The notes beneath the pieces are model-generated. The model was given only the letters and a program-made list of their open reading frames with translations. It was not told the origin of the DNA and made no database searches. A stretch of 64,000 bases of DNA, from assembly GCF_021026315.1 (NCBI RefSeq), contig NZ_JAJNCX010000004.1:62001-126000 (forward strand), read 5' to 3'. Every line of letters starts with the position of its first letter. Position 1 is the first letter of the stretch. The DNA is from Rhizobium sp. C4 (lineage in GTDB: Bacteria; Pseudomonadota; Alphaproteobacteria; Rhizobiales; Rhizobiaceae). Shown here in pieces: positions 3 through 45,631 of the stretch. Position numbers and translations under genes: made by a program.

Positions 3-296
3 GTGGTCGTGCAGCGCATCGTGAAGCAGGCGCTGCTCCTGCTGGCGGCGTGCATCGTCTGCCTCCATCTGCCGGCGGCGGTTGCGCGCAAACTGCAGCG
101 CCACGAGCCCCATCCAGGCAGGCATCGCGGCAAGCGTGAACTGCGACGGGTTTTCAAACGCCCATGTCAGGAACGATCCGCTGTATCCGGCATATCTGGC
201 AATGAAAAAGAATGATGCAGGCAAAACCGCACCAACTGCCGAACCAACGAAAACATAACGTTGCTCAATTTTCGGCAGAAACGAATTTAACATCAT
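3..296 (-). CDS. Membrane-anchored GGDEF (diguanylate cyclase) protein, N-terminal part
   Basis: Only the first 98 codons are in the window; the gene runs off the left edge. The reverse strand starts with ATG-ATG (296 and 293). It encodes two hydrophobic segments (about residues 14-33 and 50-67), then a basic stretch and a helix ending LLHDALHDHLT, which is how a GGDEF domain begins (usually HDxLTGLxNR). The likely role is a membrane diguanylate cyclase or GGDEF/EAL hybrid acting on c-di-GMP. The catalytic GGDEF motif itself is not visible, so activity and a possible EAL domain cannot be judged. It is divergent from btaA. Confidence 0.6.
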   Translation of the reverse strand, partial: MMLNSFLPKIEQRYVFVGSAVGAVLPASFFFIARYAGYSGSFLTWAFENPSQFTLAAMPAWMGLVALQFARNRRRQMEADDARRQQEQRLLHDALHDH

Positions 297-6063: not shown

Positions 6064-6466
6064 CGCGCCAGTTGGCCGGGCAGCCGCGCGTCATCAATGC
6101 CGAAAGGCGATGGCGGGAGGAAAGTCCGGGCTCCACGGAAACACGGTGCCGGATAACGTCCGGCGGGGGCGACCCTAGGGAAAGTGCCACAGAAAGCAAA
6201 CCGCCTTCCATTGGAAGGTAAGGGTGAAAGGGTGGGGTAAGAGCCCACCGCGACCCTGGCAACAGGGGCGGCACGGTAAACCCCACCGGGAGCAAGACCG
6301 AATAGGGATGACGCGGCGGGGCAACCCGTCAGCCTGTTTCCGGGCCAGTCATCCGGGTGGGTTGCGAGAGGCGACGTGCAAATGTCGTCCCAGATGAATG
6401 GCTGCCACGTTCCGGTTCGCCGGAGCCATACAGAACCCGGCTTACAGGCCAACTGGCGAATTTTTC
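6064..6466 (+). ncRNA. rnpB: RNase P RNA, bacterial class A
   Basis: This is the catalytic RNA that removes 5' leaders from pre-tRNAs. Diagnostic cores are present: GAGGAAAGTCCGGGCTCC near 6116, AGGGTGAAAGGGTGGGGTAA at 6221-6240, and ACAGAACCCGGCTTACAGGCC near 6431. Helix P1 is closed by GCGCCAGTTGGCC (6065-6077) with GGCCAACTGGCG (6447-6458). A T-rich run (6461-6470) ends the transcript. A possible -10 box CTATCA at 6054-6059 would place initiation about 6066, at the start of P1. The exact ends are estimated. Confidence 0.95.
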
Positions 6467-42259: not shown

Positions 42260-44092
42260 TCAGGCAATCGGAGCGGTTGCCCGGGCCAGCCAGCCGCGGA
42301 CCTTTTCATCCTCGATCAGCGGCATCAGCTTTTCCCGCGTGCTCGCATGATAGGCGTTGAGCCAGTCCAGTTCCTCGCGCGTCATCAGCGCGGGCAGGAT
42401 GAGCCGCCGGTCGATCGGGCACCATGTAATCGTCTCGAAGCCGAGCATCGGCCGGTCGCCGCCGGCAATGTCCGTGGCGGCCTCGACAACAATCAGGTTT
42501 TCGATGCGGATGCCGAAGGCGCCGGGCCTGTAATAGCCGGGCTCGTTGGAGAGGATCATGCCGGGCAGCAGTTCCTGCATGGCGGCGCGGGAAATCCGCT
42601 GTGGCCCCTCATGCACCGACAGATAGGAGCCGACGCCGTGGCCGGTGCCGTGACCATAGTCGGCGCCCGCCTTCCAGAGCGCGATGCGGGCGAGCGGATC
42701 GAGATCGACGCCGCGGGAGCCGGCCGGGAAGCGGGCTGTCGATATGCCGATCATGCCTTTCAGGACGAGGGTGAAGAAGCGCTTCTCCGTCTCGCCGACC
42801 GCGCCGATGGCGACCGTGCGGGTGATGTCGGTGGTGCCGTTGCGATACTGGCCGCCGGAATCGACCAGGAAGAGTTCGCCGGGCGCCAGCTGCCGGTTCG
42901 TTTCGCCTGTCACGCGATAATGAATGATGGCGCCGTTCGGGCCGGCGCCGGAAATCGTGTCGAAGGAAATGTCCGCCAGCGGGTTCTGCATGCGCTCGCC
43001 AACGCGGCGGCGGCAGGCTTCCAGTCTTTCGACGGCTTTGATCTCGGTGATCGCACCGGGTTCCGCGTCATCGAGCCAGGCGAGAAATTCGACCATGGCC
43101 ACGCCGTCCTGGACATGGGCGGTGCGGGTGCCGGCAAGCTCTGCCTCGTTCTTGGTGGCGCGGGGCAGGGCGCAGGGGTCGGTCGCTTCGCACACCGTGC
43201 CGCCCGCCGCCTCGATGAGGCGAACGAGTTCATAGGAAACGATGCCGGCGTCCACTTCGACAGTCGCGCCGCGCGCGCCCAGGGCACCCAGCGTTTCGGC
43301 CAGCTCTGCCGGCTCGCGAATTTCGCAGATCTGGGTGAGATAGGCCTTTTCCTCGATCCCGGTCTTGCGGGCGTCGAGGAAGATTTCGGCGAGCCCGTCG
43401 GCATGGATGATCGCGCGGGCAAGCGGGTGAGGGGTGTGCGGCACGTCCGAACCGCGGATGTTGAAGGCCCAGGCGACGGAGGACGGGTCGGCGATCAGGA
43501 CGGCATCGGCGCCGCGCACTCTCAGACCTTCGGCGATGGCGGCGATCTTGTCACGGGCGAGCGTGCCCGAATGCTGGTGCTTCTGGATGGTGACGCGGCC
43601 GAGCGGTTCGGCCGGGCGATCGGTCCAGAGCGTATCGAGCGGGTTATCGGCCAGCAGGACCAGCGCACCGCCCTTGCTTTCCAGCGCGGTCTTCAGCTTG
43701 CGAACTTCCGAGACGGTGTGCAGCCACGGATCGATGCCGAGGCGGAAGCCCTGACCCGCATTGTTGGCGATCCAGTCCGCCGGCGGCTCCTTGATGAGAT
43801 CGCCGGGGGTGAAGACGGCCGGGTCTGTCTGCTGGGCAAGCTGCGTGACATAGCGACCGTCGACAAAGACGACCGCGATGCCGGGGGCTACGAGTGCCGC
43901 ACCCGCCGAGCCCGTGAAGCCGGTGAGCCAGGAAAGGCGCTCGGCAGAGGCCGGCACGTATTCGCCCTGGAACTCGTCAGCGCGCGGCACGAGGAAACCA
44001 TCGACGCCGAGGCTTGCAAGATGTTCGCGCAGGGCGCGGACGCGGGGGGCGCCATTGGCTGGGCTGGCGGTGGTTTCAAAGCTCTGGAACAT
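42260..44092 (-). CDS. M24 family Xaa-Pro aminopeptidase (long form)
   Basis: This 610-aa cytoplasmic metallopeptidase has two N-terminal creatinase-like domains (VDGFLVPRADEFQGEY, LSWLTGFTGSAGAA) and the C-terminal pita-bread domain with metal ligands in FLVDSGGQYRNGTTDITRT, GHGTGHGVGSYLSVHEGP and NEPGYY. It removes N-terminal residues that precede proline. The length fits the three-domain aminopeptidase P class (about 600 aa), longer than E. coli PepP. The start MFQSFET at 44092 stands well. Confidence 0.92.
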   Translation of the reverse strand: MFQSFETTASPANGAPRVRALREHLASLGVDGFLVPRADEFQGEYVPASAERLSWLTGFTGSAGAALVAPGIAVVFVDGRYVTQLAQQTDPAVFTPGDLIKEPPADWIANNAGQGFRLGIDPWLHTVSEVRKLKTALESKGGALVLLADNPLDTLWTDRPAEPLGRVTIQKHQHSGTLARDKIAAIAEGLRVRGADAVLIADPSSVAWAFNIRGSDVPHTPHPLARAIIHADGLAEIFLDARKTGIEEKAYLTQICEIREPAELAETLGALGARGATVEVDAGIVSYELVRLIEAAGGTVCEATDPCALPRATKNEAELAGTRTAHVQDGVAMVEFLAWLDDAEPGAITEIKAVERLEACRRRVGERMQNPLADISFDTISGAGPNGAIIHYRVTGETNRQLAPGELFLVDSGGQYRNGTTDITRTVAIGAVGETEKRFFTLVLKGMIGISTARFPAGSRGVDLDPLARIALWKAGADYGHGTGHGVGSYLSVHEGPQRISRAAMQELLPGMILSNEPGYYRPGAFGIRIENLIVVEAATDIAGGDRPMLGFETITWCPIDRRLILPALMTREELDWLNAYHASTREKLMPLIEDEKVRGWLARATAPIA

Positions 44093-44311
44093 GATGCAAC
44101 CGATCGACTTTTGATGTGGCCATGAGGTTTATCTTATTCGGGCGCTCGACGCCAAGGGCAGGGTTCGACGGCGATTTTTGACCAGATAGTTAAAATCATG
44201 CAAAAAACGCATAGCTCCCATGAGCAATCGACTGTGTTGCGGCGCAATAATTCGAGCTATAAAAAAATCACGAACGAAGCAGAAGTGCTGCGGAAACGAA
44301 GGGAAGTGAAA

Positions 44312-44464
44312 ATGTCCACGCTTTGGACGGTGAAGAAGACCATGATCGCATCGCGCGAGCGTCATGCTCAGCGTTCTGTTGCTCGTGTTCTCGCCGGCAT
44401 GGACGACATCGCCCTCAATTCCCTCGGCAAGTCGCGCGAAGGCCTGCGGATGGGCCCGTTCTGA
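44312..44464 (+). CDS. 50-aa DUF1127-like small protein
   Basis: This short basic protein (MSTLWTVKKTMIASRER, then RSVARVLAGMDDIALNSLGK and SREGLRMGPF) follows the DUF1127 pattern: a basic helix, LxxMDDxxLxxLG and SRxxL. AGGGA at 44300-44304 sets the start. The longer open frame from 44198 is AT-rich and lacks protein character upstream. A CTATAA at 44257-44262 may be its -10 box. It is followed within 30 bp by three hairpins with CCTCCTCCC loops, the arrangement known for CcsR/'cuckoo' sRNAs cotranscribed with a DUF1127 gene. Function in this strain is unknown. Confidence 0.7.
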   Translation: MSTLWTVKKTMIASRERHAQRSVARVLAGMDDIALNSLGKSREGLRMGPF

Positions 44465-44490
44465 CAGTTTAAGTTCCTGTTTCGGTAGCC

Positions 44491-44518
44491 AGAGATCGCT
44501 CCTCCTCCCAAGATCTCT
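44491..44518 (+). ncRNA. Anti-Shine-Dalgarno-loop hairpin 1 (cuckoo/CcsR type)
   Basis: AGAGATC (44491-44497) pairs with GATCTCT (44512-44518). The loop carries CCTCCTCCC (44501-44509), which is complementary to ribosome-binding-site sequence. It is the first of three such hairpins downstream of the small DUF1127-like gene. Confidence 0.75.
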
Positions 44519-44543
44519 CGCAACATGCCGAAACTGGTTTGTT

Positions 44544-44571
44544 CCCGGCACCTCCTCCTCCCAATGCCGGG
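44544..44571 (+). ncRNA. Anti-Shine-Dalgarno-loop hairpin 2 (cuckoo/CcsR type)
   Basis: CCCGGCA (44544-44550) pairs with TGCCGGG (44565-44571), enclosing the loop CCTCCTCCTCCCAA with three CCT units. Between this hairpin and the third is a separate stem GATCAGC-CTA-GCTGATC (44576-44592) without the motif. Confidence 0.75.
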
Positions 44572-44593
44572 ACGCGATCAGCCTAGCTGATCC

Positions 44594-44630
44594 AAGGGCG
44601 ATGCCACCTCCTCCCGGCATCGCCCTTTTT
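44594..44630 (+). ncRNA. Anti-Shine-Dalgarno-loop hairpin 3, doubling as intrinsic terminator
   Basis: AAGGGCGATGCC (44594-44605) pairs perfectly over 12 bp with GGCATCGCCCTT (44616-44627). The loop is ACCTCCTCCC and a T run follows. It is a full intrinsic terminator whose loop again presents the anti-Shine-Dalgarno motif, so it probably forms the 3' end of the whole transcript. Confidence 0.8.
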
Positions 44631-44746
44631 CTTTGCCTATCGTCTTGTGCATTGCAGCAAATCGCTAGCCCGCAACAGGCCCGCAAGAGGATTGCGGGCC
44701 CGCCAAATGGCATGCCTGATGCGCATAACTAAGTTGAATTGCTTTA

Positions 44747-45631
44747 TTATTTCGCGCCGCGTTCCAGCACGATGGTCACCCAGCCGTTGCGCCAGATGGT
44801 GCGGCGATGGGCGAGGCGCTGGCCGTTATAGGCTGCGAGCACCTTGAGGCGCTGGCTGGCGAGAATGCCGGACAGAATCACCGTCCCGCCGGGTACGAGG
44901 TTGCGGACGAGGTCCGGCGCCATCTTCATCAGCGGCTTTGCCAGGATGTTGGCGATGATCAGGTCGAACGGGCCGTTCAGCCGGAAGGCGCCGTGGTGGA
45001 AGCCTGGAGCGGTCTCGAAGCGAAGGCCGGCGCCGACGCCGTTCTTGCGGGCGTTTTCGCGCGCCACGCGGGTTGCGATCGGGTCGATGTCGGTCGCCAG
45101 AACCGGGATCGGCTGGATCTTGCGGGCGGCGATTGCCAGCACGCCGCTGCCGGTGCCGAGATCGAGCGCGTTCTTGATCTTGCGCGAGCGCAGAACCCAG
45201 TCGAGCATTTCGAGGCAGCCTGCGGTCGTGCCGTGATGGCCGGTGCCGAAGGCCTGGCCGGCATCGATTTCGATTGCCACATCGCCCGGCATCACGCGGT
45301 CGCGGTCATGGGAGCCATGGACCAGGAAGCGGCCGGCGCGGACGGGCTGCAGGCCTTCCAGCGACTTTGCCACCCAGTCGGTATCGGGCAGCAGTTCGCG
45401 CTGGATTTCCAGATGTTCGTAGCCGGAGGTCAGGGCCTGTTCGAAGGCGGCTCTGGCGCCGTCCTCGTCGCCCTGCATCGTGTAGACGGCGGTTTCCCAC
45501 ACATCGTTCGCCTCGTCGATTTCCATCGTCGTCACGGCATATTCGCCGTCTTCGAAGATCGCGCCCAGGCGGTCGAGGATGATGGCGCAGTCGTTCTCGC
45601 TGGCGTTGATGTAAAGACGGACTTCGCTCAC
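44747..45631 (-). CDS. prmA: Ribosomal protein L11 methyltransferase PrmA
   Basis: This 294-aa protein has an N-terminal substrate-recognition domain (SEVRLYINASENDCAIILD) and a C-terminal class I methyltransferase with AFGTGHHGTTAGCLEML, ALDLGTGSGVLAIAARKI and the NPPY-like DLIIANILAKPL. It trimethylates L11 on the ribosome. GTG 45631 is the start: the frame stays open far upstream (to 46216) but only across the SCO gene in another frame. It lies 44 bp downstream of the SCO gene and may be cotranscribed. Confidence 0.93.
   Translation of the reverse strand: MSEVRLYINASENDCAIILDRLGAIFEDGEYAVTTMEIDEANDVWETAVYTMQGDEDGARAAFEQALTSGYEHLEIQRELLPDTDWVAKSLEGLQPVRAGRFLVHGSHDRDRVMPGDVAIEIDAGQAFGTGHHGTTAGCLEMLDWVLRSRKIKNALDLGTGSGVLAIAARKIQPIPVLATDIDPIATRVARENARKNGVGAGLRFETAPGFHHGAFRLNGPFDLIIANILAKPLMKMAPDLVRNLVPGGTVILSGILASQRLKVLAAYNGQRLAHRRTIWRNGWVTIVLERGAK

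Follow-up and report, generated by a model that had tools for sequence, protein, structure and literature searches.

A hairpin array with anti-Shine–Dalgarno loops behind a small-protein gene beside prmA in Rhizobium

Gene organization of the locus

We analysed a 64-kb stretch of the Rhizobium sp. C4 genome (64,000 nucleotides, hereafter the window) in which a small-protein gene and a hairpin array with anti-Shine–Dalgarno (anti-SD) loops lie between pepP-like and prmA genes. The features of the locus are as follows (positions refer to the window).

42260–44092, minus strand: pepP-like gene (M24 aminopeptidase), a locus marker (Pfam Peptidase_M24 and creatinase domains)
44199–44212, plus strand: LsrB/VtlR-type box TGCA-N6-GCAT, the motif that LsrB recognizes at S. 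meliloti PnfeR1 (sequence)
44235–44263, plus strand: probable core promoter read from the sequence, with a weak −35 TGTTGC (44235–44240), a 17-nt spacer and −10 TATAAA (44258–44263)
44312–44464, plus strand: small-protein gene, 50 aa, remotely DUF1127-like (profile A3; hhalign)
44476–44537, plus strand: hairpin 1, CCUCCUCCC (44501–44509) in a 14-nt loop, within an outer stem (fold; covariation in helices 1–3)
44541–44575, plus strand: hairpin 2, CCUCCUCCC (44554–44562) in the loop (fold; covariation in helix 4)
44576–44592, plus strand: GATCAGC stem without an anti-SD loop (fold)
44594–44634, plus strand: hairpin 3, CCUCCUCCC (44607–44615) in a 10-nt loop, followed by TTTCTTT; probable terminator (fold)
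44747–45631, minus strand: prmA (ribosomal protein L11 methyltransferase), a locus marker (Pfam PrmA, 213.6 bits on 44750–45628; GTG start at 45631 chosen)

A longer start for the small protein at 44198 (88 aa) was rejected because the frame would cross the box and promoter. Elsewhere, the window carries a bacterial RNase P RNA of class A (6068–6460, 315 bits).

The small protein and its family

The earlier note had called the 50-aa product DUF1127-like; the open reading frame (ORF) is there, and its relation to DUF1127 is detectable by profile–profile comparison only. The window protein and five congeners had no Pfam match at E ≤ 10, the window protein and three relatives had no NCBIfam match at E ≤ 1, and the window protein neither scored over 23.3 with DUF1127 (PF06568) nor featured among the nine matches that this genome has at E ≤ 1. 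A plain DUF1127 gene was rejected given these missing Pfam and NCBIfam matches, and below-cut-off matches of two relatives to ARMC9_ARM and Asparaginase were taken as chance. Comparison with an alignment of 29 DUF1127 proteins by hhalign gave 78%, or 89% over 27 columns once gappy columns were dropped, with a score of 30.4 (27 columns); none of 100 column shuffles exceeded 14.6, and the reversed alignment scored 10.3. The likeness is confined to the C-terminal half of the peptide.

A profile of the six genus proteins (A3), run on 199 family genomes, had matches in 101 of them at E ≤ 0.01, and these matches together with two more congeners make up the 103 loci examined. Both pepP and prmA lie beside the small gene at 94 of the 103 loci and at least one of them at 99. 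Four loci with neither marker (L102, L112, L139 and L123, the last a true DUF1127 protein) and one with no clear start (L105) were left out of the ortholog and box counts. In one genome, three adjacent matches to the profile (G070 C91:8231–8711) look as if the gene had been copied in tandem; in another, four DUF1127 matches stand in a row on one strand (L151 and L162, G207 C130:31148–32639).

The pN/pS ratio of the ORF was 0.36–0.59 in the 10 pairs among five species of the genus, 0.63–1.20 when these five were each paired with the sixth species (G003) and 0.11–0.38 in 10 pairs from seven other genera with pS ≥ 0.4. Judged from these sequences, constraint on the protein looks weaker in the genus, although the five-species pairs stay below one.

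Structure and conservation of the hairpin array

The window has three copies of the motif CCTCCTCCC, all on the plus strand, at 44501, 44554 and 44607; shuffled versions of the 64 kb contained 0.67 copies on average, and three or more anywhere in 2 of 100. The region 44466–44640 has a folding energy of −71.4 kcal/mol, whereas shuffles average −42.7 (z = −7.4; none of 200 was as good). Motif positions and fold together confirm the three anti-SD loop hairpins that had been proposed 3′ of the 50-aa ORF, and the stems are those claimed: AGAGATC in hairpin 1 (44491–44497 paired with 44512–44518), TCCCGGCA in hairpin 2 (44543–44550 with 44565–44572) and AAGGGCGATGCC in hairpin 3 (44594–44605 with 44616–44627). 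Two elements were absent from the earlier note, namely an outer stem that encloses hairpin 1 (44476–44489 with 44520–44537) and the motif-less GATCAGC stem between hairpins 2 and 3 (44576–44582 with 44586–44592). Hairpin 3, which had been proposed to be the terminator as well, resembles one, with TTTCTTT directly 3′ of it; it is absent from the list of a simple terminator scan, which limits loops to 8 nt, and the loop here has 10.

The array with all three motifs is present in each of the six examined genomes of the genus, so that the conservation of loop motifs in relatives, on which the original claim had been staked, was borne out at this level. In local folds, 17 of the 18 motif copies of the genus lie wholly within a hairpin loop (the exception is the second motif of L022). 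We aligned 13 sequences from the genus and a related genus (g84); in this alignment, which was fitted to the covariance model of the array, 97.0% of cells were paired and 32 of 48 pairs had two-sided changes, in agreement with the view that loops are retained while stems diverge. Covariation was 0.548 compared with 0.202 after shuffling, none of 500 shuffles was as high on any of five measures, and sliding the alignment by one column lowered pairing to 43–44%. Two-sided changes affected 18 of 19 pairs in helices 1–3 (the hairpin 1 region), all 10 pairs of helix 4 (hairpin 2) and 4 of 12 pairs in hairpin 3, in which 100% of cells were paired. The GATCAGC stem is conserved without covariation support, because six of its seven pairs never vary among the 13 sequences. 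In the 10 pairwise comparisons of five species of the genus, identity was 96.8% for hairpins 2–3, 86.9% for the promoter, 77.8% for the hairpin 1 region and 68.4% for the ORF.

Relationship to RNA families

Membership of the CcsR family, as the earlier note had suggested, was rejected, given that the covariance model of CcsR1 (RF02791) reached only 24.2 bits against a gathering score of 65.3. The nearest RNA family is instead ar14 (NfeR1, RF02344), the Rfam model of which matches 44538–44631 with 51.6 bits, below its gathering score of 58.8; five congeners score 49.9–55.5 bits, likewise below that threshold. Like ar14 RNAs, the array carries CCUCCUCCC in the loops of three hairpins whose stems diverge, and because the scores of window and congeners stay under the threshold, it is ar14-like yet not a member. 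The same genome has three ar14 loci above the threshold (112.9, 106.2 and 92.3 bits), two of which adjoin Pfam-detected DUF1127 genes (L001/L032/L034, G000 C5:5171–6268; L002/L033, G000 C2:176903–177368), and six NfeR1-type loci are described in S. meliloti (PMC7143759).

Upstream box and promoter

LsrB is reported to bind the TGCA-N6-GCAT motif at S. meliloti PnfeR1, −72 to −57 from the transcription start (PMC10746234). Judged from the candidate −10, transcription at our locus may start near 44270, in which case the box would span −71 to −58. The box begins 59 nt before the −10, with the same offset in all six genus members; TGC[AG]-N6-GCAT occurs eight times on the two strands of the window, and only this copy has TAT at +57..60. 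The box and the 59-nt spacing of an ar14-type LsrB promoter are present, a sigma-70 consensus scan gave no site at the candidate core promoter, and LsrB binding is predicted. TGC[AG]-N6-GCAT was found 58–59 nt before TAT in 6/6 genus members, at 3/3 ar14 loci of this genome and at 7/7 g84 loci (at L181 in g84, as TGCG-N6-GCAT with a spacing of 59). Both AbcR (ar15) loci of this genome (L168 and L169) have an LsrB-type box 61–62 nt before a −10-like TAT, and a gene with LysR domains by Pfam directly precedes L169. We read this gene as LsrB because of its place, which vtlR/lsrB is reported to occupy in Agrobacterium and relatives (PMC7486931).

We also searched 98 upstream regions of the small-protein gene, which are related and so do not represent 98 independent cases. 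At −130..−95 from the ATG, 17 regions, including the six of the genus, had the exact box (0.19 on average and at most 2 in shuffles), 45 had it with one mismatch (2.8, at most 8) and 69 with two mismatches (21.6, at most 32). A strict form (TGC[AG]-N6-GCAT with TAT at +57..60) was present in 21 of the 98 syntenic regions: 16 of the 18 with TCCTCC behind the gene (6/6 in the genus and 10/12 others) versus 5 of the 80 without. Subtraction shows that a box within one mismatch is present in no fewer than 27 of the 80 regions without loops. The box tends to accompany the loops, and its looser form is older; because the strict box is found in only 5 of 80 loop-less relatives, LsrB control is less sure for the ancestral gene than for the loop-bearing form.

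Distribution of the array and absence of the ORF in g84

A covariance model of the array had matches in 152 of 394 family genomes at E ≤ 0.001. Scores were 91–195 bits in the six genomes of the genus, 57.6–79.4 bits in seven g84 genomes (the set in which the model found the array, not a fraction of g84) and at most 57.4 bits in all others. The lowest g84 array is not separable by score from other ar14-like matches (57.6 versus 57.4 bits); its place separates it, as none of the next 17 model matches (L183–L199) had prmA or pepP beside it. In g84, prmA lies downstream of the RNA and the box upstream in 7/7 genomes, and pepP was not found within the stretches searched around the array. In six of the seven, the small-protein profile had no match before the RNA; the best match elsewhere in these six genomes had an E value of 0.13, two of the genomes being only 81 and 86% complete. 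The seventh (G166) retains a 45-aa version that matches profile positions 1–32 of 56; no motif is present in hairpin 1 of its array. Box, array and prmA thus persist in the other six g84 genomes, from which the ORF is missing.

On a quick prmA tree of 97 rows (30 of 94 inner branches weak, no outgroup root), the 18 rows with at least two motifs form one clade (SH-aLRT 95) that needs one change, with the g84 rows chosen for having the array and their motif counts set by hand; presence of any motif needs four changes. The tree omits loci with fewer than 200 aligned prmA residues (L075, L055, L049 and others) and L134, which occupies the same place as L181. Four tails that carry a single motif and fall outside the main clade (L061, L072, L068 and L107) were rejected as arrays, given that the motif lies in no loop in local folds; L061 and L072 have the box with its spacing despite this. 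The first motif of L059 and one motif of L120 are likewise not in loops. Repeated arrays were seen at two further places: tandem anti-SD arrays with a period of ~129 nt (L027, L030 and L031, G195 C54:17715–18172) and three array-model matches ~350 nt apart (G068 C1:4345172–4345994).

Proposed function and origin

We consider it probable that the locus is an LsrB-activated unit that combines a small protein with a trans-acting anti-SD RNA. The promoter would yield one transcript, the 5′ part of which would encode the 50-aa protein and the 3′ part of which would be a ~160-nt RNA with three CCUCCUCCC loops, ending in the terminator hairpin. This RNA, as the long transcript or after processing, may pair through its loops with strong SD sites of other messages and block their translation in the manner of NfeR1, the three loops of which are reported to silence ntrB redundantly (PMC10746234); by this analogy, it should act on strong SD sites in trans. 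The loops would have arisen in the tail (3′ UTR) of an older small-protein gene, and g84 would later have lost the protein and kept the RNA.

An alternative is an RpoH-driven stress operon of the CcsR/CIN1 kind, in which a DUF1127 RNA-binding protein would help to mature the cuckoo RNAs downstream. The order of parts is that of ccaF1-CcsR1-4 (PMC10253847) and the peptide is remotely related to DUF1127, but we regard this operon as unlikely in view of the CcsR1 score, the LsrB-type box with its NfeR1-like spacing, and the retention of the RNA without the ORF in six of seven g84 genomes, where the peptide is therefore not needed for the RNA. The same ORF-less arrays weigh against a purely cis-acting 3′ UTR, the hairpins of which would merely terminate, stabilize or translationally control their own small-protein mRNA. 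Such a role would fit the position of the array directly behind the stop codon and the terminator-like last hairpin; it is nonetheless quite improbable, as the start site of the ORF itself (AAGGGAAG) poorly matches the loops and TCCTCC is absent from the 250 nt that follow the small-protein gene at 84 of the 103 loci.

For a trans-acting RNA, the genome offers 50 sites of GGAGGAGG-N3–9-ATG (eight complementary bases) compared with 8 for the reversed pattern, and hence many possible partners. Of 30 candidate sites retrieved, 20 open frames of at least 100 residues; several sit inside longer frames, and some are therefore no true starts. On visual inspection, some candidate targets resemble components of ABC transporters; a strong SD is no proof by itself. 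The loops, which we take to resemble the anti-SD end of 16S rRNA, might instead titrate SD sites or initiation factors broadly with no preferred targets, as the excess of 50 sites over 8 would allow. By analogy with NfeR1, the loops of which are reported to silence defined messages (PMC10746234), we judge such a global decoy to be highly improbable.

Returning to the LsrB-activated dual-function transcript, we lean, with less assurance, towards a specific history in which the RNA was born from a protein gene. Beside prmA, anti-SD hairpins would have been gained once in the 3′ UTR, giving a dual-function message in several genera, and the ORF would have been shed in g84 (shortened in G166), with box, architecture and place kept; LsrB would control all four of the anti-SD arrays identified in this genome by way of a constant spacing between box and −10. 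Anti-SD arrays of the ar14 and CcsR kind are known, and the literature that we found, as far as its accessible text goes, does not address the origin of the copies. Here, a single place beside prmA offers a living series, from a plain tail through a two- or three-motif tail to a stand-alone RNA without an ORF, and the g84 form, with the protein gone and the RNA and its probable switch kept, hints at a regulatory RNA growing from a protein gene. In addition, a single transcript of this locus may unite two known kinds of LsrB/VtlR output, DUF1127-type small proteins on the one hand and anti-SD or AbcR RNAs on the other, and the locus lends itself to a simple test of whether the anti-SD arrays of the genome share one regulator.

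Comparison with known systems

We found no description of this array in the open-access literature. Its closest relative, ar14/NfeR1, shares the three CCUCCUCCC-loop hairpins with variable stems and an LsrB-type box equally far from the −10; the present array differs in its sub-threshold score, the outer stem, the extra motif-less stem, the ORF in front and its position beside prmA. SmelA075/SmelA099 of Rhizobiales also have three or four CCUCCUCCC loops on variable stems and were placed by their authors in a single family whose members differ in module number, but their accessible description mentions neither a protein gene in front nor a prmA locus (PMC3927594). The VtlR/LsrB-activated DUF1127 genes (atu1667, BAB1_0914 and others) are comparable as small-protein genes under VtlR/LsrB control, which is predicted here; unlike at our locus, the accessible accounts describe no anti-SD array behind them (PMC7486931, PMC12595884).

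The likeness to the CcsR/cuckoo layout of Rhodobacter that the earlier note had pointed out stands for the arrangement of parts and fails for the family assignment and the plain DUF1127 gene. The reported CcaF1-CcsR1-4 ('CIN1') locus likewise has a small-protein gene in front of several anti-SD RNAs and a terminator (PMC10253847), but here the CcsR1 model falls short and the peptide is only remotely DUF1127, and an LsrB-type box lies where CIN1 is described with an RpoHI/RpoHII promoter (PMC10253847). DUF1127 genes with CcsR-like RNAs are on record (PMC10253847), and the arrangement itself is therefore no novelty. Our analysis adds to it an LsrB-type box at a constant spacing, the position beside prmA, a diverged family of small proteins and the ORF-less form in g84.
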